DNA of 64,000 nt from Echinarachnius parma (Eukaryota > Echinodermata > Echinoidea > Clypeasteroida > Echinarachniidae). Position 1 is the stretch's first letter, and each line of letters begins with the position of its first letter. The stretch spans positions 1 to 64,000 of the forward strand of contig JBAMJV010003100.1 in NCBI GenBank assembly GCA_037951105.1, read 5' to 3'. Positions 5,426 through 62,815 of this stretch are shown piece after piece. The notes under the pieces are model-generated. The model made no database searches, was not told the DNA's origin, and was given only the letters and a program-made list of their open reading frames with translations. The position numbers and the translations under genes were made by a program.

Positions 5426-5853
5426 TAAGGTGATCCATTTAACTTTGTAAAATTCAACCAAAATTACTTTGAGCTGTCACACTTCTCTTGTATCTTGTTG
5501 TTTAGCTTATGGTAACATAATTTGGAATTTTATTGTTCAATTGTCTCCCTAATTATTGAGATATTTAAGATTGAATTTGAAAGCGTCTGCGGACGCTTTC
5601 ACCTGTAGTCAAAAGTATCCGATTTCGGATACGAAATCGTCCATAGTATCCAAATTCGGATACTTCACGCGAACGATCAGGATAAAAACGGAAATGGATT
5701 TTCGCTGTTTTCACTAGGTAAACGTTATTCTTTACCAATGAAAACCTCACATATTCTCAATAATTGTACAATTAGATTGGTATAACATTACTGTTGAATT
5801 CTGAAATATTGCTTTTATGAAGAAAAAATATGTAAAGTTAATGGATCACTGTC
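5426..5853 (+). mobile_element. Family A inverted-repeat element, copy 1
   Basis: The ends read GGTGATCCATTTAACTTTG and TTAATGGATCAC, an imperfect inverted pair matching copies at 15874, 33376, 45012 and 57599. A palindromic core GAAAGCGTCTGCGGACGCTTTC lies near 5579-5600, followed by two GTATCC-rich inverted motifs. It is a non-autonomous MITE with no transposase. The termini of this copy are slightly decayed. Confidence 0.8.
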
Positions 5854-5854
5854 T

Positions 5855-6515
5855 TGATGACTCTCGACTTGAATACCGGCTTTTGCTAGAGTATTGTTAT
5901 TGAACCATGCAGTGGTGCATTGTAGCGCGGTCAGGGTTAGGGTTGTGTAATTCGCTGTTTGTTTTATTTTGCGAAGGATTTCCCCTTATGTTTGTAATGC
6001 TTTCATATAATTATCGCTTTGGAGGGGGGGGGGGGCATTATACTATGCCACTGCTTTAATATTTGCCTGGCAATCTCCATCTTGTCATTTTCGATCCGGA
6101 AATACTTTCTCAGTTTTTTTTCTCTTCATTTCTTCACTTCGGGTTTCTCACCCAAGGACGAGTTATGCAACCGAGAAAAACAAAGTCAAAAGCAACGTAA
6201 ACACCTCAATGTCAAACATATTTCCTCTTGATAAAGGTTAAATAATGCAAACTTTCATCGCGTTCAGGACTGTCATATTTTCTTTCATTCCATGCCCGAT
6301 ACGTCATTTATAGCAATCTGCACCGTAATAACACAATGGTCACCTCGCAAATCATAAGGACCGCTATTCATAACGTTATATTTCCCCATTGCCCGAGCAC
6401 AAGAGAAATTTCCCCGACAATGAAGCTCATTTTCCTGGAATGTAGGTGTTTCTAAAACTCTTGGACGGAGGGGGAGGGTGAGGGGCTGCAGCCCCCTTAG
6501 TCAACATCATTGTAC
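5855..6515. other. Non-coding stretch with a (G)12 run
   Basis: A (G)12 run lies at 6024-6035. The reading frame at 6019-6231 has no motif and begins in the G run. Nothing else was recognised. Confidence 0.4.
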
Positions 6516-6519
6516 GCTT

Positions 6520-6764
6520 TTGATAGGTTTGAGGAGGTTGATTAGAACAAGGTCATTCAGCCAAATATATGATTTGGTCATTAATATTGCATATCCTATC
6601 TCATTTGATCCCCGGGGGTGGGGAGAGGGGGCTACGCCCCGCATAGCCCAATCGCTCAATCGCCTTTGAGGAGGTTGATTATAACAAGACATGCACTTGA
6701 CTTTTAGCAATAACTATGCTGTTTTTGGTCATTAATATCGCCTGTCCTATTTCCTTCTGACCCA
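6520..6764. repeat. Diverged tandem duplication, ~137 bp unit
   Basis: GAGGAGGTTGATTAGAACAAG at 6531 recurs as GAGGAGGTTGATTATAACAAG at 6668. Both copies continue with TTGGTCATTAATAT and CCTATYTC. Confidence 0.75.
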
Positions 6765-6769
6765 TCTAC

Positions 6770-7550
6770 ATTTACAGTAGGTCTATATAAAGAGTCAAAT
6801 TAATTGGACAGAAACTCAAGAGGCAACAAACTCCCTTTTTACGGCAGCCCGTCCAAGGGGATAGCCCATCGAGATTCATAAATCACGAAATGTGTTGTCT
6901 CGATGAGCCTTCGGTCCGATTAATCTTCGAATTCATGTTGGTAATTACTGTTCTACAAATAGATGGATATATACGCATCTGTCAATGATGGGTGAGCATG
7001 CAGTTGAAGCCAGTAAGCTTCATTATATTGACCATTGATGTCTAAGCTTTAATTAAATTAATCTTCATAAACGTTTGGACAGTATGTATTCATTACTGGA
7101 GAATTATATCCAAACCATGGATGTGTAAACAGTTTCATATAATCACATATAAAACATAATGTTATATGGAAAGTGTAAGCTATAAATATGTTCATAGTTG
7201 AGGAATCATAACACGGACGATCATTATTATACGATGTACCTTAAATGGACATCTTATGATGCCCGATATATTTTGGGAAACACTTTGACTGCCACAAAAA
7301 AGTGGCCACTATGACAGGTTTTTAATGTACTGTATTTTGAAATGTAATGTTCTTCATGTTCAATAATGGCGACCACGCATTCAACCCTATGGGGCTATAT
7401 GATTTCCACTGATCTATATCGATGGTTACGATCCTTCTGGGCGCCTCATTAGAATAGATTATATCCTACATGAATGAAATCCTGTTCAGTGATTGGTCTA
7501 CATAGCGTCATGTGACAAAACATAGTAATGCCCATGTAGAAAAATGTGCT
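6770..7550. other. AT-rich non-coding stretch, nothing recognised
   Basis: No protein-like frame, RNA gene or clear repeat was seen. Confidence 0.4.
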
Positions 7551-7554
7551 ATGC

Positions 7555-7602
7555 GTGACGTCATTCATGGAATAGTAAATGCTATTCCATGAATGACGTC
7601 AT
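7555..7602. repeat. Perfect short palindrome with two CRE-like TGACGTCA sites
   Basis: The left arm is 7555-7575 and the right arm 7582-7602, with a 6-base loop. Each arm contains TGACGTCA, the consensus of CREB/ATF sites. The duplication follows from the palindrome, so regulatory function is only inferred. Confidence 0.8.
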
Positions 7603-7609
7603 AGACGCC

Positions 7610-8210: not shown

Positions 8211-8211
8211 A

Positions 8212-8384
8212 AAACAAATATATCATGCACTATTTCGAGCCACTAGTGAAATTATGGATTCCTCGGTGACAGAAAAAGCACTATGTTCTTCGGGTCTACG
8301 ACCCTCAGAACATAGTGCTTTTCCTGTCACCTCGGAATCCATAATTTCAACTAGAGGCTCTCAGTGCATGGTATATTTGTTTAT
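8212..8384. mobile_element. 173 bp hairpin element
   Basis: The arms pair from ACAAATATATCATGCACT on the left to GTGCATGGTATATTTGT on the right. The inner ~60 bases per arm are almost perfect, closed by a small GGGTC-TAC-GACCC hairpin near 8292-8304. It is probably a small foldback MITE. No clear target duplication was resolved. Confidence 0.75.
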
Positions 8385-8448
8385 TATACAGGACATACAT
8401 CACATATTAAACACTACCACATGACTACGACAAAACCGTACAAGACCA

Positions 8449-8775
8449 TTAAAGGGATCTAGTAACATTGTCCAAATCCTCAAAACCTACTCAGATTTAT
8501 AGTGGTTCTCTCATACCTTGTTGTATTCGTATTCGAAGCATGGAATAGTTTTGTTTTCTATTTCCCTTTCACTACAAAGATACTTACGATTGAAAGTTAA
8601 AACTGTGTACATAGTCAGTGCGATGAGTCTGTCAATTTCACGTTGCATTTTTGCTCATTATACTCGGCCATATAACATACATTTATATATCATGACATGT
8701 TTACACATTAAAGTGGACATGTCAGATCACAAAAATAATCATTTTATCAACTCTCATTGATTTGTTCAAATGACG
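8449..8775 (+). mobile_element. Family B element, copy 1 (right end decayed)
   Basis: It starts TTAAAGGGATCTAGTAACAT and follows the family B consensus: a 'ttgttgtattcgtatt' block, a 'tttccctttc' block, 'aaagtcagtgc', 'gctcattactcggccatataac'. The right terminus, expected to be GTTACTAGATCCCTTTAA, is too degraded to see. Non-coding. Confidence 0.8.
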
Positions 8776-12727: not shown

Positions 12728-12865
12728 AGGAGGAGGTGGGGACGGGCAACGAATTCCCTGTTGCTTATGCTAGTCGGAAGCTACTTCCCAGGGAAAGGTC
12801 ATATGCTACCGTAGAGAAGGAGTGCCTTGCAATCGTGTACGGCATTCAGAAATTCTGCAACATTT
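12728..12865 (+). pseudogene. Central RNase H fragment of the Gmr1-like element, in inverted orientation
   Basis: On the plus strand this segment reads with the RNase H motifs FPVAYASRKLLPRERSYATV and EKECLAIVYGIQKF, which belong to Ty3/gypsy RNase H. The neighbouring element lies on the minus strand and lacks exactly this part: its N-terminal RNase H motif (SDIGLGVVLLQ) is joined directly to its C-terminal one. So this middle block has been inverted and displaced, or comes from a second copy inserted the other way. It ends near 12865, where sequence homologous to the other strand resumes. It is non-functional. Confidence 0.8.
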
Positions 12866-12901
12866 GCAGTCTTCTCCAACCGAGAAGCCTCATCATTGCG
12901 G

Positions 12902-13250
12902 TTACTCCTCCCATGCATTTCGACTCAGGAAGTCTGCCCCTACGTTCTGTGATCCTTTGATCGCTTCCACTCGGAAGCGGTAGGACTGGAGTACCAAAGC
13001 CCAGCGCATCACCCGTGCATTGGAGTAGCACCACACCTAGCCCAATATCAGATGCACCCGTTCGGAGAGTGAACGGTCTCTCACAGTCCGGTAGATGGAG
13101 AGTAGGTGTCGTGGTCACATGCATCTTCAGTGTCTTGAAGGCTCGCTCCTGGCCCTCCCCCCATGAGATCTGGTTTGGTTCCTTGGCTTTAGTCAGGTCG
13201 GTCAAAGGTGCTGCTACCGGAGCAAAATTGGGAATAAACCGTCTGTAATA
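12902..13250 (-). pseudogene. RT tail and RNase H remnant of the Gmr1-like element
   Basis: Read on the minus strand, the segment carries the conserved end of RT (GYYRRFIPNFAPVAAPLTDL), a W-G-E-linked connection, and then the RNase H start. The usual TDASD, whose first Asp is catalytic, reads TGASD here. The middle of RNase H is missing and the C-terminal part follows in another frame (NVGADFLSRN), ending in TAA at 12902-12904. A stop right after RNase H, with no integrase beyond, fits an element in which RNase H is the last pol domain. On the upstream side this segment is fused to an integrase zinc finger, so the integrase core and nearly all of RT are deleted. Confidence 0.85.
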
Positions 13251-13450
13251 CCCGATCAATAATCGGCACAGAAACCAGAGGAACCTTCGTAACCTTTCCC
13301 TTTGGTACTGTGCGTTGGCAAATATCACATGATCGAACATACCTCTTGATGTCAGCTTGTATTCCAGGCCAGAAAATGGACGATATAACCCTTTCGGTTG
13401 TTTTGGGCGTACCCTAGTGTCCTCCGAAGATGGATTCATGAGCCAGCTGC
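13251..13450 (-). pseudogene. Integrase HHCC zinc-binding domain remnant with in-frame stop
   Basis: On the minus strand the two His of the HHCC domain (AHESIFGGH, near 13417-13443) and the two Cys (CDIC, 13318-13329) are all present. They are separated by an in-frame TAG at 13414-13416, where a Leu codon is usual, which suggests a single nonsense change. WPGIQADIKRYVRSCDICQR matches the usual spacing of gypsy integrases. The DDE catalytic core that should follow is absent because of the deletion to the RT tail near 13240. Confidence 0.85.
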
Positions 13451-14505
13451 ATCACTGCCTTCCTGTGCTTGCGGGGCACAACAACCTGATAGATTGGGTC
13501 ATGACAGCCCGTCCTGGATGATTTGAATTCCCGGTGGAGTATACCCTTCTGCATAACAAACCTAGATGTGTGACCATCTTTGCCGGTCTTGACCTCCAGC
13601 GCTTCCGCCAGCTCATGGCAACGCTTGAGCTTTGCGTCAGACCGCTGATCTGTCTTCAGGTCTTCTGCTGAAACCAGATCCGCAATGCCTCTGGGCACCT
13701 TAAGTGCCGGTGTCGGCTTACCTGCCTTCGCAGCCTGACCTCTGGTTTGGACTGCGTATCCCTTTGCGTCAAGACCACTATTCTCCAGACGATTCATTTG
13801 GTCCGGTGCTGTTTTACTATCAAGGGCTCGTTTCATGATCCAGTCTGGATTTGGGTCGGTGGGGTTACGGGCCTCCGGAATATTCCCGACTATCAAGTCA
13901 TAAACCGGCTGCTCCATACAAAGCGCCTCGGTTTCCCCGACATAGAAGGGAGTGTCGACCTGTACCCGGGCCACTGCAAATTTCCTTACAGTGCCATCTA
14001 TAAGACCACACCCTCTGATCTCACCTGTGAGCTGTCCTTCGCCGACCAAGCTTCTGCGGACCACCACGCCACTACAACCACTGTCCCGTAAAACAGAAAC
14101 CGGTTGATCCCCTACTAGTCCTGCAGCCACCGGCATGTGGCGGCTGGGCCGTCGTCCACATGCAGCACTCAAGATGGAGAGGTGGTTTCCACAGCGCAAG
14201 ACGACGTGGTCTTCCTCTTTGCAACACCTACCCAGGCTGTGTGCTATCATAGACTTACTACAGTAAGTCTATGGTGCTATGAACGCCCACGTTTCGACTT
14301 GGTTTTCCCCGGGGTCATCTAGCTGATACCCTGGTCCTAGATCTGGATAGTAAGCCTCACCCTCTTCCAGCCCCGCAGTCTTGGTCAGTGGTGGGCGGAA
14401 TTTGCAATCCCGGGCCATGTTCCCCCTTCGGTTGCAAATGAAACAAGTCCGCGGGGGAGGGGACAGTGCACCCTTTCCGGGTGGACTGGGTATTGGTCGG
14501 TCCAT
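13451..14505 (-). pseudogene. Zinc knuckle, aspartic protease and linker of the Gmr1-like element
   Basis: Minus-strand order: a gag-type zinc knuckle near 14400-14445 (CFICNRRGNMARDC, with Asn in place of the ligand His), then an aspartic protease with the DSG motif (LRDSGCSGVVV) near 14050-14090, then a linker leading straight to the integrase zinc finger. There is no RT between protease and integrase. This PR-INT order is the hallmark of Gmr1-like elements. The frame is interrupted by a stop inside a 26-base palindrome at 14248-14273; frames on both sides of it are in the same register. The element cannot encode a working polyprotein. Confidence 0.85.
14241..14280. repeat. 26-base palindrome flanked by 7-base direct repeats, inside the pro region
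   Basis: GTGCTAT at 14241-14247 and 14274-14280 flanks a perfect 12-base-arm hairpin (14248-14273, 2-base loop). Palindrome plus one direct repeat is 33 bases, a multiple of three, so the insertion keeps the reading register but introduces a minus-strand TAG. It looks like a minimal insertion with a target duplication, or a templated break repair. Confidence 0.85.
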
Positions 14506-15350
14506 CCCCTCAGGTTATTCTTTTTTACATTTCCCGGTTGCTGGTGTCTTGGAGTGTCTTGTCTGGAACAACGGGTGAATGGTTCCCCTCTTGCTTCGAT
14601 GAACTGCTCTGCCAGCCTCCCCATGGAGAATATGTCCTTGGGCATTCTCTCATTTATGAAGACTGACAAGTCTGGGCCGCAGATGTTTAGAAATTGCTCC
14701 TTGATGCAGAGGTCCCTAATAGCCCAGTAGGTAGTTGGTACCTGGGCCAGCTCAACCCAACGATCGAAATTGGATTCTAGTCTGACCATAAATTCAACAG
14801 GGGTTTCCGCGCGGTCGGGCCGGGCAGTACGAAATCGTACCCGATAGCCATGCTCGGTGAAGTTATAGCTCTTCAGTAGTGCCGCCTTTACTAGCGGGTA
14901 TTGTGATGCGTCCTTTGATGGCATACGCGAGAAAACCTGTAGGGCCTTGCCTGTGAGCAGGGCACTAAGGTCGATGGCCCACGAGTCTTTGAGCCAATCC
15001 TGATTGTCGGCGTACCTCTCGAATCTTTGAATGTATGAGTCTATATCGTCGCGGTCATCCTGGAATGGCGGGAGCTTTGGGGACGTTTCCATCCTCTTAT
15101 TTTCCCTGCCTTGGGTCCCGTTTGAGGCATTTACATCCTGTGCATCCGGTGTCTCTTGCTTCAGCTCCAATAGCTTAATTTGCTTTGAAAGAACATAATT
15201 TTCACATTTCTTTAACTCTAGTAATTCTGCTCGCTCATCTCTCGCTGCATCCTCTCTTTCACGCACAATATCCATCCATTCTTGGCCTTCAATGCCATGC
15301 GTCTTACCCGCTTCAAGCCACTTTTCAATGCCATCCCTTCTGCTCCCAAC
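14506..15350 (-). pseudogene. Gag capsid remnant (SCAN-related) of the Gmr1-like element
   Basis: The minus-strand frame is open from about 15350, although its first ATG is at 15275. It begins with a charged, coiled-coil-like N-terminus (REREDAARDERAELLELKK). A capsid follows with the motifs PKLPPFQDDRDDIDSYIQRF and later KEQFLNICGPDLSVFINERM. That second motif closely resembles the SCAN domain pattern (KEQ-L-L--L-QFL--LP-----V). SCAN domains are known to derive from the capsid of Gmr1-like retroelements. A one-base frameshift near 14505-14515 separates it from the zinc knuckle. No LTR was found on either side. Confidence 0.85.
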
Positions 15351-15873: not shown

Positions 15874-16272
15874 TTAATGTGATCCATTAACTTTATTTTA
15901 AAAAAATTCCCGAACGGAATATCTGAGACTTCAATAATATTCCAATAATTAGCATTGTAGGTTTCTTTTGGAGAATTTTTTTTACCAAGATATAAAGGTG
16001 AAATTGATGTTATCACATAAAGGGTAAAAAGGGGTGGAATTGATGTTATCAGCGCCCACTGATTTAGACTACTATTAAAAAGCGTTCCCGACCGCTTACC
16101 ATTCGATCATAAATATCTTCATGCATAAACTAGGGAGTCGTTTGGAAAAATCAAAACCCATTTCATTCTTCTGTTACCGTAAGCTAAGCAACAAGGTGCA
16201 AGAGAAGTGTAAAAGCTCCAAGTAATTTAGGTTGAATTTTACAAAGTAAGCACGGTTAGTGCATCACTTTAA
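15874..16272 (-). mobile_element. Family A inverted-repeat element, copy 2
   Basis: The ends are TTAATGTGATCCATTAACTT and GTGCATCACTTTAA, with TTAA at 15874-15877 and 16269-16272. It is oriented opposite to copy 1. It contains a decayed palindromic core, AAAAGCGTTCCCGACCGCTT, near 16078. 'cttctgttaccgtaagctaagcaacaaggtgcaag' type sequence matches copies 3 and 1 (complement). Confidence 0.8.
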
Positions 16273-18790: not shown

Positions 18791-18932
18791 TATGGGTTAG
18801 AAATGATGGGAGAGTGATGGATTTACTAATGGAGATGGGAGAGCCAATGGATATGAAACGTGGGCTCAATACTGAGATGTGACCCAGGAACGTACTTGAC
18901 CTGAAAAGCAGTATATCTACTGGATGTGAAAC

Positions 18933-19373
18933 GCGGCGTAATGGACGTGAAACGCGGCATAATGGACGTAAAACGCAGCCAAATGGACGTGAAACGCGGC
19001 GTAATGGACGTGAAACGCGGCGTAATGGACGTGAAACGCGGCATAATGGACGTGAAACGCAGCCAAATGGATTTGAAACGCGGCGTAATGGACGTGAAAT
19101 GCGGCGTAATGGACTTGAAACGCGGCGTAATGGACGTGAAACGCGGCGTAATGGACTTGAAACGCAGCATAATGGACGTGAAACGCGGCGTGATGGACGT
19201 GAAACGCGGCGTAATAGACGTGAAACGCGGCGTAATGGACTTGAAACGCAGCATAATGGACGTGAAACGCGGCGTATTGGACGTGAAACGCAGCCTAATG
19301 GACGTGAAACGCGGCGTAATGGATGTGAAACGCGGCGTAATGGATGTGAAACGCGGAGTAATGGATGTAAATC
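18933..19373 (+). repeat. 21 bp minisatellite, exactly 21 units without indels
   Basis: The consensus unit is GCGGCGTAATGGACGTGAAAC. I partitioned the array into 21 consecutive 21-base units with only substitutions. Variant units (GCGGCATA, GCAGCCAAA, GCAGCATA, GGACTTG) recur with a four-unit (84 bp) period. Because 21 is divisible by three, several frames stay open on both strands, giving 7-residue repeats such as MDVKRGV; I treat these as artefacts. Confidence 0.95.
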
Positions 19374-20955
19374 TGAGTGCAAAATGTATGTGAAACAGGT
19401 TGTTATATTTGTATTGCATGGGATGCCAAAGACACCATCATGTGTCATAGGTTTTATTTTGTTTTTCTAAGCGGGAAGAGTTGGGAAGAAGAAAGGGAGT
19501 ACCCCTGTTTTGCGCTATATAATTGTTTGTTATTTACGCAAATGGACATATTTCTCACCAAATCAACGTAGCGACAGAAAAGATAAAACATGCATGACTT
19601 CTTCGATGCCTTCTACTTCGTCCTTATCAAATAACTTGTTATCATTATGTGGCATCGACCTTGTTTTAGGGCAAACATAAGTAATACGTTATGTTTCTAT
19701 TTCCCTTTATTTAACCCTTTAAGGACTTGATGTCATTTATTTAGGGTTAGGATCATTCTATCGATACTAATATTGTAAAGTCAAGGCGAATCCCGAGGGG
19801 GTGTGCTCGGCAAAAAGATCATATTTTGACATTCCACTTGTCAAACTTGTCAAAATCCTCCCGCTGTGAAATTTCCCTGGATGCTCAAGGAATTCAGTTA
19901 AATCTACGACTCACAATGAAGGGACAAAAATATCGAGATTGTACTTTGTTTTGTTTTGGGTCAGTGCGACTTGAATTGAATATTCAGAACAAATGAGATA
20001 AACAAGTACATAATTTGCCCCAATTGAATTCTTACGTTATGTCAGAAATGTACGAATAAATCTTAAATAATGAGGAGATATTAATATTTGTTTTTGTTCA
20101 GCTAATGTTTTTTTTGTGTGTGACTACAATGCAATTTTAAGATTGTTATCGCTTGAAGTTCGCCTGGGTAGTTCGAAGAATAAAGTCATGATAATGAAGA
20201 GGTATAGTAAGAAATAATGAAGATATATTCTATTTTGATGATGTTCTGTTTTTGACAGGAATTTTTCCCGAGCATAATTAGCATTGGAAAGGAGCGTACA
20301 CCGAAATAAGACAAAATTATCATACAGTTTAATATAGATATATTTCTAGGAGGGTACATGATACATCCATATAATTAAGACAGAGTTATCTAGATTTGTT
20401 TCGTTCCGATTTTAATTCGTAGAAATAAGATACATTCTTCCCAAGCTGATAAGATGAATACAAATAAGAAATGTTGACGGTTATGAAATGCTTCTTTATT
20501 AAATGTAACGACGATATAAAACTATTTTTGGTATCGTTTACATTTGTTGTAGATTTGATTCCCGTGTTTCTTATGAATAAAGCAATATTATGGAACAGTA
20601 AACGCAAACGGGATTGATACAACAACAAATACACTTTAGAAGTGACTGACTTATGAACTGTAGGAGTGTCCGACTTATGGAAACAAATATTAATTGCCGA
20701 AAGTGAATGATGCGATCCATTCCATTAAATGTGGACAATAATGTATAACATTAATTGTTAATGCATCTCTGGTCGGTCATCAAACAAATAGAATTGAACT
20801 TGAGACCTCTCGCATTTGATGAATCATTTCGAGTCATATTTAGGAAGAAACCAAATTGCTTTTTGATAGCCTTTTAAGAAGAACCTGCTCCCAGTTCGAC
20901 GACGATTATATTATTTTGAAGCATCTCCATAATCTGAATGTGTATATCATTATAT
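19374..20955. other. AT-rich non-coding stretch, nothing recognised
   Basis: Short frames only, without motifs. Confidence 0.35.
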
Positions 20956-20959: not shown

Positions 20960-21718
20960 CTCGATTTCCCTTCAGTAAAAAGATATTTACGATTGAAGTG
21001 CTCATATGTTTAAAGGGATAGTTGAGTTTTGGTATAGAGCTAGGGCGCTACAGAAAATAATTTTTTGAGGGATAATGAAAAACCGAGTCTCAAAATTGAA
21101 CGAGCATACCATTATAATGACAAAGTAAACTTTATTTGATCAAAATCGGTTCAGAAACGGCTGAAATATCCATAAACATAACCATTTGTAATATTTTTTG
21201 GGTCCCAGCCGTTAAAAACATTTTTAAAAATGCTTCCTCTGCCTTTTCAAGAATTTACAAAAGAGGTTTTTAAATAGTTATTGATGATCTCTCTATCTAA
21301 TCACTATTTCAACAAAACATCACATGCACAATATTTTATTTAAAATGGTTGAAACCAATGAGTTTTTAGAGAGCGCCCTCTTCGGTTTTAACGGCTCTTT
21401 TAAATGATAACAGGCTTTTTACTTTAGTAATTTGTAATTTTGTATTCCTTTCGAGCATGGTGGAGTTATAACTGTTAGTTTGAATTGTAATGGTGCAGGT
21501 TTTGGTTACTAAAATTCAGTTTGACCAAAACTGTACTCTCTTTACCAAAACTCAATGTGAATATCACTTTGCATTTTTGCTCATTACTCGGCCATATAAC
21601 GTCCACTTAAGTTGAAATGTTCACACAATACCCATCAGTGGACATATCAGATAACAACAATATACATTTTATCAACCATTTATCACTTTTTGCACATGTC
21701 AACAAAGTTACCCTTTAA
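20960..21718 (+). mobile_element. Family B element, copy 2, interrupted by family C
   Basis: Family B sequence (TTCAGTAAAAAGATATTTACGATTGAAGTG) runs to about 21009, is interrupted by the family C element, and resumes at about 21554 with GTGAATATCACTTTGC. It then continues to AACAAAGTTACCCTTTAA at 21718. The left half of B is truncated, and sequence around the C junctions is lost. Confidence 0.75.
21010..21553 (+). mobile_element. Family C element, copy 2, nested in family B
   Basis: It starts TTAAAGGGATAGTTGAGTTT at 21010 and matches the complement of the copy at 32034 over most of its length. Shared blocks are AAAATCGGTTCAGAAACGG, GAGAGCGCCCTC and TTTTGGTTACTAAAATTCAG. It stops at TACCAAAACTCA, so the final ACTTTCCCTTTAA is missing. 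Non-coding. Confidence 0.8.
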
Positions 21719-21890
21719 AGGGATCTAGTAACTTTGTCCAAATCCACAAAACTTACTCGGAACTTATAGTGGTTCTCTCATTCTATTTTGAATTCGTATT
21801 ACCAATAGAAGCATGGGACAGGTTTCGGTTTTCCAAATTTCTCTTCCGTTATAAAGATATGTATGATTGTAGTGTTTGGAATCGAAATTC
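21715..21890 (+). mobile_element. Family B left half, abutting copy 2 tail-to-head
   Basis: TTAAAGGGATCTAGTAACTTTGTCC starts at 21715, directly after the right end of the preceding family B copy. The two share the sequence CCCTTTAAAGGG. It continues through the 'attcgtattaccaatagaagcatggga' block and then ends. Confidence 0.75.
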
Positions 21891-24127: not shown

Positions 24128-24260
24128 TTAAAGGTGGTTAAGATTCGTAAATCAGGTGTGCGGTGCCACCTTGCGAACACCTTGCACTGATCAGTGCAAT
24201 GTGGTGCTCGCAAAATGGCGACCCACGTTGTATAGCATCGCCACGCTTTACGACCTTTAA
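24128..24260 (+). mobile_element. Family F small TIR element, most complete copy
   Basis: TTAAAGGTGGTTAAGATTCG starts at 24128 and the element ends ACGACCTTTAA at 24260, so the termini AGGTGGT/ACGACCT are inverted and bounded by TTAA. The core GCGGTGCCACCTTGCGAACACCTTGC is shared with about nine other partial copies in the window. Length ~125 bp between the TTAA sites. Confidence 0.7.
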
Positions 24261-25789: not shown

Positions 25790-25925
25790 GTGTGACTATA
25801 GACTAATTTGTGCTCTTCTATAACACTCGGCCAATGTGTAAATTACCAATGTACGGCACGCACCGTGCGCAAGGCGTTTGCAAAATGGCTCCGCCCGTGT
25901 GATTTACGATTCCGAATCACCTTTA
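25790..25925 (-). mobile_element. Family F partial copy, joined to family B
   Basis: CACGCACCGTGCGCAAGGCG, AAAATGGC and GATTCCGAATCACCTTTATA are the complement of the family F core and end. The next element (family B) begins exactly at its TTTATA/TTTAAA edge. Confidence 0.65.
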
Positions 25926-26296
25926 TAGGGATCTAATTTAGTAACATTTTCCAAATCCACAAAACTTACGTAATACTCTAATTGCTGTTGTATTCGTATT
26001 ACCGTAGCTTAGAACAGGTTTTTCTCTTCAAATTTCCCTTTCGTTAAAAACATATTTACAATTGACCTGTTCAGATGTTAAATTATCCACTGGATAGTCA
26101 TACCTGTGTACAACGTCAGTGCATGAGTTAGCGAATATCACTTCGCATTTTGGCTCATTACTCGACCTTATAATGTCCATTTAACTCAAAATGTTTCACA
26201 CAATACCCAGTGGACATATCAGATAGCAACAATACACATGGTATCAATCATGTATCACTTGTTGCACATGTCAACAAAGTTACTAGATCCCTTTAA
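25921..26296 (+). mobile_element. Family B element, copy 3, both ends present
   Basis: The left end is TATAGGGATCTAATTTAGTA and the right end is GTTACTAGATCCCTTTAA. The interior has all the family blocks (ttgtattcgtatt, tttccctttcgtt, ccactggatagtca, ctcattactcg). Non-coding. Confidence 0.85.
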
Positions 26297-29549: not shown

Positions 29550-30780
29550 GTCACCCAAATGTTCAGAAAAATAGGTTTCCATAATTAAAAAACTCATCAT
29601 CATACAAAATTATGCGTTCATGGGTCTGCAGAAGTAGACTAGACTACTGTCTAGCACGTACGCGTACTATTGTCTCCAAACGAATACGCGTGTATAGAAC
29701 TCGCAAACGTTTGGCGCATACGGAACCTAAGACCCTGTTAGGTTCCGTAAGCTTAGGTAACTGCATTGTTTATGAATAACACAACCCTTCGCAAAGGTTT
29801 GGACATCTATTTAATATCAATGTACGGGAAAACAAATCACATAAGCCAGTGTTATTTTTCTTGCTTGGTGGTCCCCTTTAAGGCACAGTACGTGTATGTA
29901 AGTGTGTCCACTGTGTGCATCTGTATTGTGATCATAATTAAAAACGTGTGAAGTTGCGTACTTGCATGTTTATTTATGTGTGTTTGTAATATATTACAAG
30001 TATGGCATTACTAGCATACTTTGTGTTTTTTTTATATGCTGTCGATGTTAATGCAAATTTTTTACAAACTAAGGCTTTTCATTGCTGCTGCTAGTGCTGC
30101 ATCAACTTACCATTTATTTCTAACACACCACTAGTATATTTTAAGTCTCTTGTAAAGTATTTATTGTTCGTAATGCATAATGAACAATGTAGGTTTTTGT
30201 GGAAATGCTTGATAAATTGAAACTGAATCGAATGAAATGGTTGCAGTTACATTCAATTATTCTCATCAGCATATCATTAATACACATATTATAGACGGGA
30301 GGACGTGTGATATGTGCACATTCTACGCCAATCAATACAATCAATCATCGTCGTCCAAGTGTTAATTTCACCGTGTAGAAATCGAAAAATCGAAAAGTGA
30401 ATGTTCCTAGAGAAACATGATTTTTGTCTTGGTATTTATGACGCGCACGTCTTGTCGACGTCATTGTTATGAGTGTTTGTCATTTTATTATCCATCTCAT
30501 CAGACACAAGTAGGTAGATAGGTGGTGGTAGCTAAATTATTATGTTGAAGGTAGCTAAGTAATGCGGTGCGGTAGATATCTATGGGGGAGGGGCAGCAAA
30601 TGTTTGCATCACTGGAATTAAATTACTAAATTGAGTAGATATTATCCCGGGGATATTATGCGGAATGTATTATTTTATTTTACACTTGTCATGCTCGTGA
30701 ACAAAATTAATTCATTACAAGAACAAAAAACACAACATGATTCAGCTTTAAAAGCAGTAATTTAGACGAAGCATATTATG
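29550..30780. other. AT-rich non-coding stretch, nothing recognised
   Basis: A short inverted pair GGTTCCGTA/TACGGAACC at ~29718-29750 was seen. No genes. Confidence 0.35.
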
Positions 30781-32033: not shown

Positions 32034-32597
32034 TTAAAGGGATAGTTGAGTTCTGGTAAGGAGAGTACAGTTTTAGTGCAACTGAATTTTAGTAACCAAA
32101 ACCTGCATCATTACATTACAAACTAATAGTTATAACTAGAAAGGAACACAAAATTACAAATGACGTAGTAAAGATCATGTTATCATTCAAAAAGAGCCGT
32201 TAAAACGTAAGAGGGCGCTCTCTAAACACTCATCGGTTTCAACCATTTTGAATAAAATATTGTGCATGTGATGCTTTGTTGAAATAGTGATTAGATAGAG
32301 AAATAACCAACAACTATTTAAATACCTATTTTGTAACTTTTTTGAAAAGAGGAAGCATTTTTTTGAATTTTTAACGGCTGGTTCAAAATTCTCTAATAAA
32401 CCCGGGGCCCCGGGTTTCTTACAAATTGTTATATTTCTGGATATTTCAGCCGTTTCTGAATCGATTTTGATCAAACAAAGATGATTTTATTGTTTAAATA
32501 TTATGCTCTTTCAAATTTTACACTCAGTTTTTCATTACCTCACAAACCAATTAAGTAGTCTAGCGCCCTCTCTACCAAAACTCAACTTTCCCTTTAA
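32034..32597 (-). mobile_element. Family C element, copy 3, complete
   Basis: The left end TTAAAGGGATAGTTGAGTTC pairs with the right end AAACTCAACTTTCCCTTTAA, with TTAA at 32034-32037 and 32594-32597. It is inverted relative to copies 1 and 2. The interior has CGATTTTGATCAAACAAAG and GGGCGCTCTCTAAACACTC. A CCCGGGGCCCCGGG palindrome at 32401-32414 is unique to this copy. Non-coding, ~556 bp between TTAA sites. Confidence 0.9.
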
Positions 32598-33375: not shown

Positions 33376-33792
33376 ATAAAAGTGATACATTAACTTTATA
33401 TTTTTACCAAAAAGTAATGTTTGAGACTTCAATCATATACCAATTTCATTGTAATATTCTTGAGAATTATACGTAAGAATTTCATAAAAAATAATAAAGT
33501 TTACCTAGTGAAAACAGAGAAAATCAATATCCTGATCGTTCGCGTGAATAATCCCAATTCGGATACTATGGACGATTGAGTATCCGAATGCTGATACTCT
33601 TGACTACGGTCGGAAACCGCCTATAGACGCTCTCAATCTTAAATATATCCAAGATTATGGAGACATTTGAAAAATCGAAACCCATTTCATTATTCTGTTC
33701 CCATAAGCCAAACAACAATGTACAAGAGAACTGGAAAAGCTCCAAGTGATTTTGGTTAAATTTTACAAGTCAAAGTTAATGGATCACTTTAA
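33376..33792 (-). mobile_element. Family A element, copy 3
   Basis: The ends are AAAAGTGATACATTAACTTT and AAAGTTAATGGATCACTTTAA. Its complement follows copy 1 closely, including TTGTTGTTTGGCTTATGGGAACAG and the paired GTATCCGAAT/ATTCGGATAC motifs. Non-coding. Confidence 0.85.
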
Positions 33793-36637: not shown

Positions 36638-37034
36638 TTAAAGGGACTTAGTAACATTGTCCAAATCCTCAAAATAAAATTGTAATTCTAGCGGTTCCTT
36701 TATACCTTGTTGTATTCGTATTAACAATAAAATCATGGGACAGCTTTCGGTTTTTCAAATTTCCCTTTCATTACAAAGATATGTATGATTGAAGTATTTA
36801 GATAAGAAAATCTCCGGGCGAGATTTTCATCCCTGTACAAAGTGAATGCAGTGAGTTGGTGAATATCACCCAATATCACTTTGCATTTTCGCTCATTACT
36901 TGGCCATACATTGTCCATTTTGACCTGAAATTTTCACACAATACCCTGAGGACATATGAGATAACAACAGTATACATTGCATCAACCATTCATCAGTTTT
37001 TGCACATCTCAACAAAGTTACTAGATCCCTTTAA
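36638..37034 (+). mobile_element. Family B element, copy 4, both ends present
   Basis: TTAAAGGGACTTAGTAACAT at the left and GTTACTAGATCCCTTTAA at the right, TTAA at both edges. In place of the usual CCACTGGATAG core it carries AAAATCTCCGGGCGAGATTTT, a palindrome at 36808-36828. Another subtype of the core is therefore present. Confidence 0.9.
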
Positions 37035-39493: not shown

Positions 39494-39853
39494 CGATCTA
39501 GTAACTTTGTTGACATGTGCAAAAGTGATGAATGGTTGGTAAAATATGTAGTTTTGTGATTTGATATGTCCTCTGAGTATTGTGTGAAAAGTTTGTGTTA
39601 AATGGATGTTATATGGCAGAATATTGAGCAAACATGCAATTTATATTCCCTGACTTTGTACACGGTTATCCAGGGGGATCCAAACACTTCAATCGTAAAT
39701 ATCTTTTTAACGAAAGGAAAATTTGAAGAAAAAAAAAAAAACCTGCTCCATGCTTCTATTGGTAATACGGATACAGCATGGTATGAGAGAACCATGATAT
39801 TTCTAATTAAGTTTATGATGATTTTGACAATGTTTATATCACATCCCTTTTAT
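39494..39853 (-). mobile_element. Family B element, copy 5, inverted
   Basis: CGATCTAGTAACTTTGTTGACATGTGC begins it. It follows the complement of the family consensus to ATGTTTATATCACATCCCTTTTA. Its A-run at 39728-39740 is expanded. Confidence 0.85.
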
Positions 39854-40254
39854 ACGTTTGTATGTTCTTTGTAATCATGGTAATCGTTGTGATTTGGTAA
39901 TGTGTGTGTGAGATTATCAGCCGTTTTTTAGTTAAACATTCGTTGGGCCTTTATTTACTGCGCAAATTACTGGTCTTGTTCTAGTTTCTGAAGAAATATC
40001 AGATTATATTATAATTCAATTGATTCCTTTAGAAAACTAGGCAAAGATGAACGAATGACAGACATATGCTGGAGTTCAAGTGAAATGTATCCTCGTCGCG
40101 ATTTCTCTTCGGTTTAATTGGCATTGAATTGTGCTTTAATTCAAAGCAAACGTACCGGAGTTTATTTGTTTGTTTGTTTTCGATGAGAAATCTCGATTAC
40201 ATAGCAAAACAGTTTGGGACGTGATTTAAAGATCATCAAGCGTGCGGCTTCTAC

Positions 40255-40371
40255 ACCGCTGGTCGCCATTTCGAACTAGGCTATTATTGGCGGGCGCTGA
40301 AAACACTGATCCAATGTGCATTTCGCACCGTGCGCAAGGCGCGTCGGATATACGAATCCGAACTACCTTTA
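40255..40371 (-). mobile_element. Family F partial copy, joined to family B
   Basis: CGCCATTTCGAACTAGGCTA, TTCGCACCGTGCGCAAGGCG and ACGAATCCGAACTACCTTTAA are the complement of family F. The shared TTAA at 40369-40372 is also the start of family B copy 6. Confidence 0.7.
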
Positions 40372-40756
40372 AAGGGATCTAGTAACTTTGTTGACATGTG
40401 CAAAAAGTGATGAGTGGTTGATACAATGTATATTGTTGTTATTTGATATGTCCACTGGGTGTTGTGTGAAAATTTCAAGTTAAATGGACGTTATATGGCC
40501 GAGTAATGAGCAAAAAAGCAAAGTGATATTCACTAACTCATTGCACTCACTTTGTACACGGTTTTGACGATCCAGTGGATTATTCAACATCTGAACACTT
40601 CAATCGTATACATGTCTTTTTAACGAAAGGGAAATTTGAAAAACCGAAACCTGTGCCATGATTATATTGTTCATACAAATACAATAAGGTATGAGGGAAC
40701 CGCTAGAATTCCAATTGGATTTTGAGGATTTGGACAATGTTACTAAGTCCCTTTAA
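40369..40756 (-). mobile_element. Family B element, copy 6, inverted, both ends present
   Basis: TTAAAGGGATCTAGTAACTTTGTTG at the left and ACAATGTTACTAAGTCCCTTTAA at the right, TTAA at both edges. It is close to consensus, with the CCAGTGGATTATTCAACATC core. Confidence 0.95.
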
Positions 40757-43841: not shown

Positions 43842-43953
43842 CTAGGTTGTGCGCACAACTTAACACTGAACCAGTGTGTGTGTATTTCGCACGGTGCGCA
43901 ACGAAGGCGTCCGCAATTTTTTTACGAACTTACGAATGCGAAAAAACCCTTAA
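43842..43953 (-). mobile_element. Family F left remnant, beside the large hairpin
   Basis: GTGTATTTCGCACGGTGCGCAACG and ACGAACTTACGAATGCG are complement-family F sequence. The large hairpin element follows at TTAA. Confidence 0.6.
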
Positions 43954-44611
43954 AGGGGCCCTGCAACCCAAATGCATGTTGACCTCTGTTCATCTGTATT
44001 AGTGTACACATTCAATATTTGTAAACGGTTTGACCCAAATATGTTTTGTATATTTTTAAACATTTTATCATTTATTTGTCTTCATGTTGCTAAGCCCCAC
44101 CTCCTAAAAAACCCTCCAGAGCAAATTCTATTGTTGACCTGCAGTGACATCATTTGTCAATCACTCGTCAGCTACCATGAGATTAACAAAAGATGAAAGT
44201 ACAAAAAGAACATCCACACAAAAGCATGCCCTGCATACCTCCATGCAATAGCTTAGACGGTGCTTTTCTTCTGACATAGCAACAGCTATTGTAATTGAAG
44301 TTGTGTGATTTGGTATTCTATTCAACCGATGCTATTGTGATTAGCCTAATCTTTTTGTACTTTCATCTTTTGTTAATCTCATGCATAGCTGACCAGTGAT
44401 TGACAAATGATGTCACTGCAGGTCAACAATAGAATTTGCTCTGGAGCGTTTTTTTAGGAGGTGGGGCTTAGCAACATGAAGACAAATAAATGATAAAATG
44501 TTTAAAAATATACAAAACATATTTGGGTCAAACCGTTTACAAATATTGAATGTGTACACTAATACAGATGAACAGAGGTCAACATGTATTTGGGTTGCAG
44601 GGCCCCTTTAA
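43950..44611. mobile_element. Family G: near-perfect 654 bp hairpin with TTAAAGGGGCCC ends
   Basis: Left arm 43954-44208 and right arm 44352-44607 are complementary with very few mismatches (e.g. ACCCTCCAGAG against CTCTGGAGCGT). A ~143 base loop separates them. TTAA lies at 43950-43953 and 44608-44611. AGGGGCCCTGCAACCCAAAT starts it. No coding capacity. The very high arm similarity points to recent formation, gene conversion or ongoing mobility. Confidence 0.95.
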
Positions 44612-45011: not shown

Positions 45012-45310
45012 TTAAAGTGATCCATTAATTTCATAAGAATTTTCCGATAGTGATATTTGAGACTTCAATCATAAACCAATACCATTGAAAGATATATTTC
45101 TGAAAGATGAAACAGATTTACTATTCACCTATATATAATAGTCATGCCAGTAAAAAGGTGAACATTATGTAAGATGTTATTACCTACCACCCATTGATTT
45201 TGATTACAATCGAAAAGCGTTCCTGAACGCTTTCCAATTGAAGGTACAATAGGAAGTAGAAGCTCTAAGTGATTTCGGTTGGATTTGACAAAGTTAATGG
45301 ATCACTTTAA
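45012..45310 (-). mobile_element. Family A element, copy 4, short form
   Basis: TTAAAGTGATCCATTAATTT at the left, AAGTTAATGGATCACTTTAA at the right, TTAA at both edges. The core hairpin AAAAGCGTTCCTGAACGCTTT at 45215-45235 is nearly perfect. About 130 bases shorter than copies 1-3, so an internal deletion form. Confidence 0.9.
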
Positions 45311-49969: not shown

Positions 49970-51398
49970 CCCTTCAAGGACTTTCCAAGGTCATTCACAG
50001 AAAAACGCTTCGAACAACTTCACATCTAATTGAGATGATTGCTGCGTTGGGGGGGGGGGGGGGGGGGGGGGGGTTTACACTCCCCTTACCGGAGGCATAA
50101 ACAGTGATCAATCATATTAACCTATTGCATACTTGAACATGGTGGGTCCTGTATTAACTCTACGGGAATGGCTAATTCTTGTAGGGAAGAGGTTAACTGG
50201 GCAAAGAGGGGTGGACTGGGGCATTCATTCTCATGATTGAGAAGCTATTGTGATTCCCACTTCCCACTCTACCTCACAAATTATAGAAACACAAAAGAAA
50301 TGACGACGACGAAAGGAACAGCGACGACGACAACAACAACAACAACAACAATACAAAACGACAGATTATAACGGATTATTTAATTTGCATGTATTTCTTT
50401 CTATAGAGGAAATAGTGAGAAGAGGGGGCAGCTAATGGCGCACGAGGGAAATAAGGACTTTCCAAGGTCATTCATAGAAAGGAAACAAATCGCTTCAAAC
50501 AACTTCATATCTAATCGAGATGATTGCTGCGTTTGGGGAACGAGTGTACACTCCCCTTGCTAGGGGCATAAACAGTGTTCAATCCTATTAACCTGGCAAA
50601 GAGTGGTGGAGTCAGGCATTTATTCTCATGATTGAGTAGCTTTTGTGAACCCTTCAAACTATTGCAACAACAAAAGCAGCGACGACGACGAAGACAACAA
50701 CAACAACAACAACACAAAGCAACAACAAGAATGGATTATAACGGATTATTTCGTTTGCATTTCTTTCTTTCTTAAAGGGGTATTCCGGGCCTGATAAAAC
50801 CATTCGTTATTTGAATAAGCAGAATAAGAGGCATAATTGGTGAAAATTTGATAAAAATCAGATAAGAAACACGGGAGTTATACCTATATGAACATCATGT
50901 AGTAATCAGCGATCGTTTCAAAATTGCCGCCATATGCAACATCATTGACGAGCAACTCGCCATGGCTTTAGTACATGAAAATACACTTATTTCTCATTTT
51001 CGTTGCTAAAAAGTAAATTTTCTCTGCTTGTTTTCACGAATTCATAGAAGAATATCGATTGGCCAACCTCTTTGGAATTTGTAAGCTCATAAATTTGCTT
51101 TGTTATTAAGAAAATTCAAATTTTGTAAGATTTCCATGTAGAAGTCAAAATGGCTGCAGCTCGCAAGTGACGTCACGATCGATAGCAATTGCGAACGATA
51201 CTAAAAATCGGAGCAAAGTTCATCCTGTCATAACTTTTTTATTGCTCTACCGTTTTGGCTCAGATTTTCGATCATGATTCTTCATATTCACTTTATTTTA
51301 TAGCAAACATCACATTTCTGGGGTGGAATTCCCCTTTAAATGGTGAGAGGAGGGGGCAGCTAATGATACACAAGGGAAATATTGCCCCGCCCCATCCC
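49970..51398 (+). repeat. Segmental tandem duplication, ~480 bp unit; second copy carries an insertion
   Basis: Copy 1 spans about 49975-50450 and copy 2 about 50452-51398. Shared blocks in the same order: GGACTTTCCAAGGTCATTCA, GAGATGATTGCTGCGTT, ACACTCCCCTT, GGGGCATAAACAGTG, CATTYATTCTCATGATTGA, (CAA)n, GGATTATAACGGATTATTT, and finally GAGGGGGCAGCTAATG. Copy 2 is longer because a family H element (50776-51335) interrupts it. Copy 1 has a (G)25 run at 50049-50073 that copy 2 lacks. Confidence 0.9.
50772..51339 (+). mobile_element. Family H element, TTAAAGGGGTATTCCGG end
   Basis: It starts TTAAAGGGGTATTCCGGGCC and ends GGTGGAATTCCCCTTTAA, with inverted ends of ~16 bases and TTAA on both sides (50772-50775, 51336-51339). 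The ~560 bp interior is not palindromic and has no coding capacity. The related duplicated segment at 49975-50450 lacks it. Confidence 0.9.
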
Positions 51399-55251: not shown

Positions 55252-55466
55252 AGTTTGTTTTCGCACGGGAAAAAGATCGCTGACATGAAGTCAACATTAT
55301 CAACGAGATAGTATCGTGATTATGTGCGTCCACACGGCCCGAAACTACGACGCACCGCTGGGGGTCACCGCTAAACTTTAATTTTTCCACGACTAAACCA
55401 CAATAAATACTGTTGTCTGAAACTAAAATTGTGGAGCTCCGTTCAGAAACTACACATTTTCTAGAT

Positions 55467-55625
55467 AGGATTCATAAATCAGACGCGCGGTGCCATCTTG
55501 TGAACGCATTGCGCACGCTGCGGTATGCACATTGGCTCAGTGTTGTGCATTGCGCACAAACTAGCCTACTTCAAAATGGCGAACCGCAGTGTAGCGACAC
55601 CAAACATGACAACCTTAAAAACTAT
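55467..55625 (+). mobile_element. Family F copy, long form
   Basis: GGATTCATAAATCAGACGCG, GTGCCATCTTGTGAACGCATTGCGCACGCTGCG and TTGCGCACAAACTAGCCTAC, then AAAATGGCGAACC, define the family F body most clearly. Confidence 0.75.
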
Positions 55626-57598: not shown

Positions 57599-57976
57599 TT
57601 AAAGTAATGAATTAACTTTGTCAAATTCAATCAAAACTTCACATTTAGCTTTTACATTTCTCTTGCACCTTGTTGTTTGGCTTATTGTATGGTAGCAGAA
57701 GAATGAAATTGATTGGGTTTAGATATGTTTCGAATATCTCCCTAGTTAAGGAGATAATTATTCGTGATTGAATCGAGAAGCGTTCCGGAACGAAGTTCGA
57801 TGAGAGTCAAAATCAACGGGTTTTCTTTTTACTTGGTAAAACACTTGCAGTTTTCCTTTTCTATGAAACTATCACACATAATTCAGCATAATCTTAAAAT
57901 GGTATTGGTATATGATTGAAGGGTCAAATATATCTTTTGGAAAAATCTCATATAAAGTGAATAGATCACTTCAATA
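57599..57976 (+). mobile_element. Family A element, copy 5, decayed ends
   Basis: TTAAAGTAATGAATTAACTTTG at the left and AGTGAATAGATCACTTCAA at the right. TTGCACCTTGTTGTTTGGCTTATTG and the core AGAAGCGTTCCGGAACG (57777-57793) match family A. Confidence 0.8.
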
Positions 57977-59525: not shown

Positions 59526-59529
59526 TATC

Positions 59530-60140: not shown

Positions 60141-60147
60141 ATACAGT

Positions 60148-60470
60148 CCGTTATTCCGAAGGTTCGTTATTCCGAAGGTTCAGTTATTCCGAAGGTTCGT
60201 TATTCCGAAGGTTCGTTATTCCGAAGGTTCGTTATTTCGAAGGTTCGTTATTCCGAGGGTTCGTTATTCCGAAGGTTCGCTATTCCTAAAACGAAATTGG
60301 GTTCGTTATTCCGAAGGTTCGTTTATCCGAAGAAAAAAATCGGGTTCGTTATTCCGAAGGTTCGTTATTCCGAAGGTTCGTTATTCCGAAGGTTCGTTAT
60401 TCCGAAGGTTCATTAGTCCGAAAATAAAATAGAGTTCGTTAATCCGAAAATTAAATCGGGTTTGTTATAA
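60148..60470 (+). repeat. 16 bp minisatellite, GTTATTCCGAAGGTTC
   Basis: About fifteen units, in three blocks separated by AAACGAAATTGG-, GAAGAAAAAAATCGG- and AAAATAAAATAGAG-type interruptions. The protein-like frame is an artefact. Confidence 0.95.
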
Positions 60471-60492
60471 TACTATAATTTGTGTTTTGTTA

Positions 60493-60829
60493 ATTTAGAG
60501 GTTCTCTCATACCTTGTTGTATTCGTATTACCAATAGAAGCATGGAACAGGTTTAGTTTTTTCGAATTTCCTTTCGTTAAAAAGATATTTATGATTGGAG
60601 CGTTCAAATGTGTAAGTACTACTAGATTGTCATAACTGTGTACTAAGTCAGTGCAATGAGTTAGCGAATAACACTTTGCATTTTCGCTTTATTACTCGGC
60701 CATATAACATCCATTTAAAGTGACATGTTCATACATTACCTATTGGACATCAGATCACAGAAATACACATTGTATTGATCATTTATAAAGTTTTGCACAT
60801 GTCAACAAAGTTACTAGATCCCTTTTAAA
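60493..60829 (+). mobile_element. Family B element, copy 7, left end missing
   Basis: It begins inside the family consensus at GGTTCTCTCATACCTTGTTG and runs to GTTACTAGATCCCTTTTAA. The missing ~45 bases at its left coincide with the end of the 16 bp minisatellite. Confidence 0.85.
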
Positions 60830-62070
60830 ATTGTACATTATAATATACACAAATTAATTCAGCATTATGGCTTATTTTGCATAGAGAAAGTGGCACACAA
60901 GTAATAATTATGATTACCATGGCACAGGTGATCAATTAAATTGCAAGAAATGAGTTAAAGAGATTGTATTGTGGGAGGTAGATTGCGCTGTCGAGGCGCT
61001 CACTGCATGGTTAGCGCAATATGTCGTGTAACCATAGAATTATGAATAAACAAACCAACCCGTTTATAACCAGCTGGAATCATGCGTGAGCGCATGCAGC
61101 ACTCTCGCAAATCGTTTGTACGTGTATACGCTATACAGATTGCGCACGCGGCGCGTGCGTAACAAAATGGCGCCTCCCTGATGTGCAATCTAATTATAGA
61201 GCCTATACACGATGACTCAGCACCTTTAACGTTTTCATGACGCACTGTAAACGAGTTTACACTGTCTAGTGACTACATTATTTCTTTTCTAACTTAATAA
61301 TGATTGGGCTTTAACCCATTGCTTGCGGGAAACTTGGAAAGTACCAATTAACCACCTTGGGGTTGTGATTTCTAGTAGGGCCTACTAAGAATACGGCTAA
61401 CTAACTTAATAGAGTTCTTTGTACGCGGAGGCGTGAAGTATAATTATTATGTTTTCTCGCAACTTCGGTCACTAACCCCATCCGGGAGATTCCCCGATTC
61501 CAACGCGCGACGAACGTGGGGGGAAGAAAAGAGTGGCGATTATCAAGCTTATTGGAATAGATAAAATCATCAAGAAAATACTCAAGCAGCATTTCATCGT
61601 AATTATGGGATTATTTTAAGGATTTAAGTATTATTTTTTGAAAGGAAAGGAAATCCAAAACACTATAGGGTAAGATATATTATATCGTGCAATTACAACG
61701 CTAAGCCGAAGCATAATGGATGTACTTAAAGAATTAAGTACCACACGATCATTGTTCAAATCCAATTAAGATTTTGACCACCTCCATCTTAGATCATTAT
61801 GTAATAGCTACTTCCGAAGTAATTTAGTTTCCCCAATAAATTTAAGTACTTACTTATCGTGAAAAGGGGTGTATAATGTTACGGTCACTCACCGTACTAC
61901 ATTACGACGGTAAGGCATTGATAATACTTTCGGCACATACTGCTAAATGAGTTTTGTTTTGTTAAAAAGGCATGTCTCATAATATATTAGTTTTAGATGC
62001 AGTTTCAGTTTCGGTTTCAGTTTTTATTTCTGCATATTCAATATTTACAATATCAACCAAAATAACAACC
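60830..62070. other. Non-coding stretch with a family F trace
   Basis: ATTGCGCACGCGGCGCGTGCGTAACAAAATGGCGCC at 61138-61173 resembles the family F core. A GTTTCAGTTTCGGTTTCAG hexamer patch lies at 61998-62020. No genes. Confidence 0.4.
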
Positions 62071-62077
62071 AATACAT

Positions 62078-62465
62078 TTAAAGGGATCTAGTAACATTGT
62101 CAAAATCCTCAAAACTTACTTGGAATTCCAGGCATGTTGTATTCGTATTAACAATACAAGCATGGGACATGTTTCGTTTTTTCGAATTTCCCTTTCGTTA
62201 AAAAGATATTTACGATTGAAGTGTTTGGATGTTTAACTATCCACTGGATAGTCAAAACCGTGTACAAAGTCAGTGCAGTGATTCAGTGTATATCACTTTG
62301 CATTTTTGCTTATTACTCAGCCACACGTACCGTATAACATCCATTTCACGTGACATTTTCACCCATTACTCAGTGGACATTTATCAGATCACAACAATTC
62401 ACATTTTATCAATCATTCATCGCTATGATTGTGTACATGTCAACTAAATCACTAGATCCCTTTAA
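62078..62465 (+). mobile_element. Family B element, copy 8, both ends present
   Basis: TTAAAGGGATCTAGTAACAT at the left, ATCACTAGATCCCTTTAA at the right, TTAA at both edges. All interior blocks are present. Confidence 0.95.
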
Positions 62466-62674
62466 GCAATGATATAATATAAACGTCAGTAATATCAATT
62501 AAATAATTACATTTTCATTTTACTAACATCTTTCATAATAAATTTGGAAAGAAAAGAAAGAGGGGGAATACAGAAGACCGATATCGTAAGCAGTGCTTTC
62601 ATGTTCATTTATTTAGTTACAAATGTTAATTTCAAAATGTAAACTTCCTTTTTATTTCTTCAAGATTTATAAGA

Positions 62675-62815
62675 TTAAAGGGATACCGTCGTCACATCAG
62701 ATGACACTCTTGAAAGTGCTGACAGGGTGGCGCCATATTTCCGCACACCGCGCGATCTGCAGCTTACATAACATTACACCAGAGAGAGTCGTGTTCACGA
62801 CTCACGTAAGAAAAA
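62675..62815 (+). mobile_element. Lone TTAAAGGGATACCGTCG end
   Basis: TTAAAGGGATACCGTCGTCAC has the shared terminus, but no matching right end was located before the (GGA)n array. Confidence 0.4.

Follow-up and report, generated by a model that had tools for sequence, protein, structure and literature searches.

Two described systems come close to what is reported here. T2-type miniature inverted-repeat transposable elements (T2-MITEs) are defined by TTAA as the target and by AGGRR at the termini; in Xenopus tropicalis they fall into 16 major subfamilies, and PMC6004289 places them with the Kolobok superfamily. Kolobok transposons themselves are characterized, in the corresponding passages of PMC9587614, by TTAA duplications and by RR..YY termini, unlike piggyBac. 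We have analyzed 64,000 nucleotides of the echinoderm Echinarachnius parma (contig JBAMJV010003100.1, positions 1 to 64,000, assembly GCA_037951105.1; "the window" from here on), which contain about 24 copies of short elements belonging to families A, B, C, D, F, G, and H, with different interiors and a common TTAA-AG end. The TTAA target together with a short end starting with AG places these elements with the known Kolobok transposons, and we consider them T2-type MITEs, which are non-autonomous Kolobok elements, with a probability of roughly 0.92.

The system is thus of a known kind, with new members and a striking copy number. Like the T2-MITEs of Xenopus, as described in PMC6004289, the elements have a TTAA target, an AGGRR end in five of the families, several sequence-distinct subfamilies, and a high copy number, and in both cases mobilization by Kolobok transposases is presumed. 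The likeness is one of description rather than of compared sequence; the host is a different animal, and the ends of families A and F are not AGGRR.

Shared-End Families in the Window

All 97 occurrences of TTAAAG in the window were inspected with their flanks, and many are chance words. The longer word TTAAAGG occurs 37 times against 14.5 expected (shuffle mean 14.52; maximum 25 in 100 shuffles). BLAST searches with reference elements gave five copies of A, nine of B (one of them split by a C insertion), three of C, one of D, four clear and two weak copies of F, and one each of G and H; a lone end at 62675 was counted separately. Both edges are TTAA in the case of B at 36638-37034 (+ strand), 40369-40756 (−), and 62078-62465 (+; the 388-bp family reference, with a 15-base perfect inverted end including TTAA), of C at 32034-32597 (−), of A at 45012-45310 (+; the 299-bp reference), of G at 43950-44611 (+; a 662-bp fold-back with inverted arms of ~260 bp), of H at 50772-51339 (+; 568 bp), and of F at 24128-24260 (+; 133 bp) and 40226-40372 (−; 147 bp). 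The remaining copies are truncated or mutated at an edge.

The TTAAAG ends named in a preliminary description of this DNA are all present at their positions, its estimate of about twenty copies in 64 kb is close to the BLAST count, and intact copies of B, C, A, G, H, and F agree with its remark that most intact ones are flanked by TTAA. Its list of families A, B, C, F, G, H, and the lone end holds but missed a further family, D (end TTAAAGGGGACCACCA). The common terminus, given there as TTAAAG plus a GT-rich word, is better defined as TTAA followed by AG, mostly AGGG, the exceptions being A (AGTGA) and F (AGGTG). Beside TTAA, families B, C, D, G, and H show AGGRR as AGGGA or AGGGG.

The families had also been called unrelated. 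Among the eight references (A, B, C, D, F, G, H, and the lone end) this stands, the only mutual match at E 0.01 being 27 terminal bases of A and B. In a wider sample, made up of the window plus 20 stretches of 10 kb each that were distributed over the contig numbers of the same genome (264 kb, including 2,500 N), it does not hold throughout: A2 and M have 136 bp in common, and G and J have ~150 subterminal bp in common at each end, so that each pair forms a lineage. Terminal inverted repeats of 15-25 bases, TTAA included, were present in 12 of 16 elements examined; G and J are fold-backs with arms of more than 200 bp, one F has six matching bases, and the best arms of K are internal. Divergence from the family majority sequence is 6-17% for B (18 copies), 5-18% for C (10), and 4-18% for D (4), indicating that the copies are old and of mixed age (stretches L003-L006 were left out of the structure and divergence analysis).

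Conservation of the Ends and Genome-Wide Scale

To compare the ends with chance we collected pairs TTAA...TTAA 100-1500 bp apart that had 12-base inverted ends (at most two mismatches) and were non-complementary outside TTAA. The terminal TTAA pairs have AG..CT in 22 of 28 cases and RR..YY in 23 of 28. In the same sample 11 control palindromes gave 45 pairs, none with AG..CT and 14 with RR..YY. The termini of the MITEs are therefore 5'-RR / YY-3', as in Kolobok. Mobilization by a piggyBac transposase, which would itself duplicate TTAA and so account for TTAA at both edges, meets here with ends that are AG..CT, whereas RR..YY termini are what sets Kolobok apart from piggyBac in the account of PMC9587614. 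Judging from the termini, we regard it as very improbable, and the earlier statement that these are not typical piggyBac ends agrees with the AG..CT termini.

An alignment of the family ends had been proposed in the preliminary description. Run on the sampled sequence, it shows conservation ending at TTAA: the four bases are kept and the next base outward is near random in families B, C, A, and D (37, 33, 20, and 18 ends, respectively; the D set, gathered with at most two mismatches in twelve, probably includes chance matches). Because stretches L001-L008 overlap partly, ends were counted by genome position. Against a fourth-order background, TTAAAGGGA (37 versus 3.7) and TTAAAGGGG (12 versus 3.9) are enriched in the 200-kb sample, and no enrichment was found there for TTAAAGGAA (6 versus 4.7) or TTAAAGGAG (2 versus 2.6).

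The scale became apparent when the whole assembly (1.2 Gb, 14,790 contigs) was searched. The word TTAAAGGGAT occurs 112,614 times compared to 3,718 for the reversed word, and the exact 18-base ends of B and C occur 32,356 and 32,562 times, respectively, compared to none for the reversed words. The word CCTTTAAAGG, in which two ends surround one TTAA, marks 12,696 sites (reversed word, 1,278), two of them in the window at 21712-21721 and 40366-40375. As TTAAAG is AT-rich and common, it could be argued that the families are a coincidence, the more so as most TTAA-AG words in the window are no element ends; the shuffles, the control palindromes, the conservation of the ends, and the genome-wide counts against reversed words refute this, and we give it practically no weight.

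Target Duplication

Comparison with empty sites had likewise been proposed. We searched the window and the sampled sequence with the joined flanks of 28 elements and then, leaving out L003-L006, of 44 candidate pairs; one pair (L010 6534-8062) was dropped, as its two ends belonged to different copies and its match was to its own flank. Informative paralogous sites, all from the same genome, were found for five elements. The B copy at L011 1392-1766 has a clean empty site at L011 686-849, 94% identical and with a single TTAA. The C copy at L002 1501-2074 has a paralogous site, in M-like sequence, with a single GTAA, and the J copy at L020 64-686 has one with a single TTGA, one mismatch in each case. 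Of the other two elements, H is unclear and K2 disagrees (see below).

By their edges, by the point at which conservation stops, and by the clean empty site, the MITEs lie in a duplicated TTAA, which is also compatible with duplication of TA within it. In a superfamily that duplicates TA and prefers TTAA targets, the elements would start with A, and filled and empty sequences would be the same as under TTAA duplication; since a TA duplication inside a TTAA target leaves an identical sequence, empty sites cannot tell the two apart. The outer T, however, is kept to much the same degree as its three neighbors (B: T 36, T 34, A 35, A 35 of 37), so that TA duplication would require a strict TTAA target, and the repeated Kolobok with such ends described below points the opposite way. 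A TA-duplicating origin is accordingly very improbable.

Kolobok Transposases and a Seven-Copy Element

Kolobok frames of the genome were reached through PF20700 (32 matches) and a THAP profile (150 of 257 candidates scored), and two, L046 and L047, were identified. In these two and eight relatives, both D and the E of the catalytic DDE, the D and H of DxxH, and the first H, the second H, and the C of H2CH are invariant; the last H is present in nine of the ten frames. THAP is annotated by Pfam label in five of the eight relatives, and the named relatives among the 120 listed of 617 proteins belong to echinoderms, a hemichordate, bivalves, and vertebrates. The genome's transposase frames L046 and L047 combine DDE, DxxH, and H2CH in the manner of Kolobok.

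A search of the genome with L047 gave 81 matches and nine different full-length open frames, the eight others being 34-42% identical to the query (each compared with the query only). One Kolobok is present as seven copies of equal score with a 715-aa open frame, and in six of the seven a THAP match lies upstream of the DDE match. Its ends read TTAA|AGCAAACCAA and TTAA|AGGAAACCAA. When the copies on contigs C1 and C1721 are compared, the left flanks are unlike and identity begins exactly at TTAAAGCAAACCAA; the two match without a difference over stretches of 307, 650, and 750 bp, show one difference over a 401-bp stretch, and vary by ~105 bp in the length of a repeat region. The left word TTAAAGCAAACCAA is exact in six of the seven copies, with the THAP match starting 273 bp inside the left end in five copies and 2,015 bp inside in the sixth. 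Among the matches listed, the right word TTAAAGGAAACCAA is found on the expected strand in all seven copies, 9.5-11.8 kb beyond the DDE match; it occurs 209 times in the genome (reversed control, 40), and ~0.007 occurrences would be expected in the stretches searched for right ends. A right end at C1:62535 was considered and dropped, because identity with the C1721 copy continues to C1:62796.

By these matches the element possesses the THAP and DDE exons and the TTAA|RR ends of a Kolobok, and it is best described as a repeated, recently copied Kolobok with T2-like ends. It resembles the Kolobok transposons with THAP and DDE domains treated in PMC6004289 and PMC9587614 in its THAP and DDE matches, TTAA flanks, and RR..YY ends; DDE, DxxH, and H2CH are present in frames belonging to its group. 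What sets it apart from them is its size: 17-21 kb between end words (17,168 to 21,218 bp in the six complete copies), with ~5.8 kb separating the THAP and DDE matches before the 9.5-11.8 kb that follow.

Other candidates were examined and rejected. Tandem units of ~4,820 bp lie on contigs C174, C9873, C1559, and C3873 (L030-L041, L043-L045), each with an open frame of 606-693 aa; PF20700 matches stand in a row, seven on C174 and three on C9873. In layout and in the 693-aa PF20700 frame these ~4.8-kb units are like the KolobokP multimers described in PMC9587614. Unlike what would be expected of a partner, the edge of their shared sequence in the C174 and C9873 arrays has no TTAA and none of the MITE references matches them, so that on present evidence they do not seem to be the partner of the MITEs. 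The THAP repeat L042 (C7118:140200-146200) proved to be an element of another kind, its 655-aa frame carrying THAP, HTH_Tnp_4, and DDE_Tnp_4 matches; many other THAP matches contain in-frame TGA and look like decayed repeats of this type. A single match of the B end in a scan of viral_contigs lies in a phage-like gene with no further similarity and was attributed to chance.

Source of the Mobilizing Transposase

How the MITEs would move can be outlined from this anatomy. Each is short non-coding DNA with ends that start with AG, in most cases as AGGG followed by a few bases. A transposase would excise the element and paste it into TTAA, leaving TTAA on both sides, and would be supplied in trans by Kolobok genes elsewhere, which have a THAP DNA-binding exon and a DDE exon with an H2CH insertion. 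We infer that Kolobok transposases recognize the ends of the MITEs and require hardly more than the short end, which would allow unrelated interiors to ride along.

Some sequences may link the MITEs to particular transposases. K2, a 417-bp sampled MITE with TTAAAGG ends, resembles over ~290 bases (two pieces, 70% and 85%) a stretch that begins ~40 bases beyond the stop of the L046 frame. Such similarity is the expected look of a deletion derivative and K2 may be one, a single case in which the first 15 bases are unshared. C matches 55 bp of the seven-copy element (78%) and 72 bp of L046 (75%), and for A, A2, and M there are matches to L046 or L047 that lie outside the frames; these may be ordinary MITE insertions.

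The preliminary description had suggested one TTAA-targeting source, or related ones, and a search for a transposase with such ends. The TTAA system, its unrelated passengers, and a Kolobok anatomy, including a Kolobok with TTAA|AG ends, were found; the single source is left unsettled by the nine full-length frames, related transposases that may each serve some of the families. Assuming Kolobok mobilization, each MITE family could have its own Kolobok partner, the TTAA-AG end reflecting common ancestry of the transposases, and we put the chances of this at even. The diversity of the frames argues for it, as do the resemblance of K2 to the flank of one particular frame and the ten-base end of the sole element with known ends, which is its own and unlike that of B or C. 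On the other hand, no partner ended like B or C was seen despite more than 32,000 exact ends of each, among Kolobok ends readable for one lineage. A more generous scheme, in which nearly all DNA with TTAA-AG and a handful of further bases at its edges is accepted by one or a few transposases, families arise repeatedly from unrelated DNA, and existing copies serve as landing sites (as the 12,696 sites with CCTTTAAAGG may suggest), is possible but somewhat doubtful. As its ten-base end is unlike those of B, C, and the others, the seven-copy element illustrates what type of source is meant and is not a demonstrated source.

Several observations weigh against assigning the elements to T2-type Kolobok MITEs. 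The AGTGA of A and the AGGTG of F depart from AGGRR, and TTAAAGGA[AG] is unenriched in the sample, although the seven-copy Kolobok ends in AGGAA. An exact empty site was obtained at only one of the five informative paralogous sites: three paralogs of K2 (L025 5267-5683) are without TTAA, a second paralog of the J copy is deleted at the site, and the H element of the window, which lies in one copy of a local duplication, is ambiguous, the paralogous site without the element (50322-50453, +) having TATAGAGGAA at the place expected for TTAA. The 715-aa frame of the seven-copy element is known by match and its right ends by the word TTAAAGGAAACCAA. Finally, among Kolobok ends, readable for one lineage, none was of the B, C, A, D, G, or H type.

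Taken as T2-type MITEs, the elements show that Kolobok MITEs have expanded in an animal genome, two families having over 32,000 exact ends each, and near-identical large Kolobok copies with known end words sit in the same genome. The minimal end needed by a cross-mobilizing transposase becomes approachable by an excision assay with natural ends. We found no report of this expansion among the open papers listed, in which the term T2-MITE is present in a single paper (subscription journals are mostly uncovered), and among the matches listed in a full-text search for TTAAAGG none is about transposons by title.

Remaining Elements and Other Features of the Window

The other B copies include one at 8449-8750 (+), with left end TTAAAGGGATCT and its right part missing, and the split copy at 20964-21718 (+; pieces 20964-21013 and 21557-21718). 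The C element inside the latter (21010-21555, +; left end TTAAAGGGATAG, right end missing) starts at a TTAA that is internal to other B copies; the right junction is lost. A partial B at 21715-21880 (+) and the B end before it have one TTAA in common (CCTTTAAAGG at 21712-21721). B at 25923-26296 (+) has a mutated left edge (TTATAGGGATCT) and TTAA at the right edge, B at 39495-39834 (−) has mutated ends, and B at 60515-60825 (+) is partial. A C fragment in two pieces lies at 959-1345 (+), with TTAAAGGGATAG on the minus strand at 1345.

Family A is further represented at 5425-5809 (+; left end TTAAGGTGATCC), 15874-16272 (+; ends TTAATGTGATCC and TTAAAGTGATGC), 33377-33792 (+; ends TAAAAGTGATAC and TTAAAGTGATCC), and 57599-57974 (+; mutated ends). 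F fragments lie at 25869-25926 (−), adjoining a B element, and 55466-55594 (+), and a D fragment with end TTAAAGGGGACCACCA at 29667-29881 (−). The lone end (62675-62686, +) reads TTAAAGGGATAC; its 226-bp stretch has no second copy in the window or the sampled sequence.

Neighboring elements have a single TTAA in common at 21712-21721, at 40366-40375 (the TTAA at 40369 belonging to both B and F), at about 25923-25926, and at 43950. Two F copies terminate at B elements, and the left flank of G (43950) is F-like by eye. A 21-bp minisatellite at 18834-19476 comprises ~21 units in register, with several frames open, and retrotransposon-like frames occupy 12849-15350 (−), with a SCAN match at 14388-15350 and a reverse-transcriptase RNase H match at 12849-13451.

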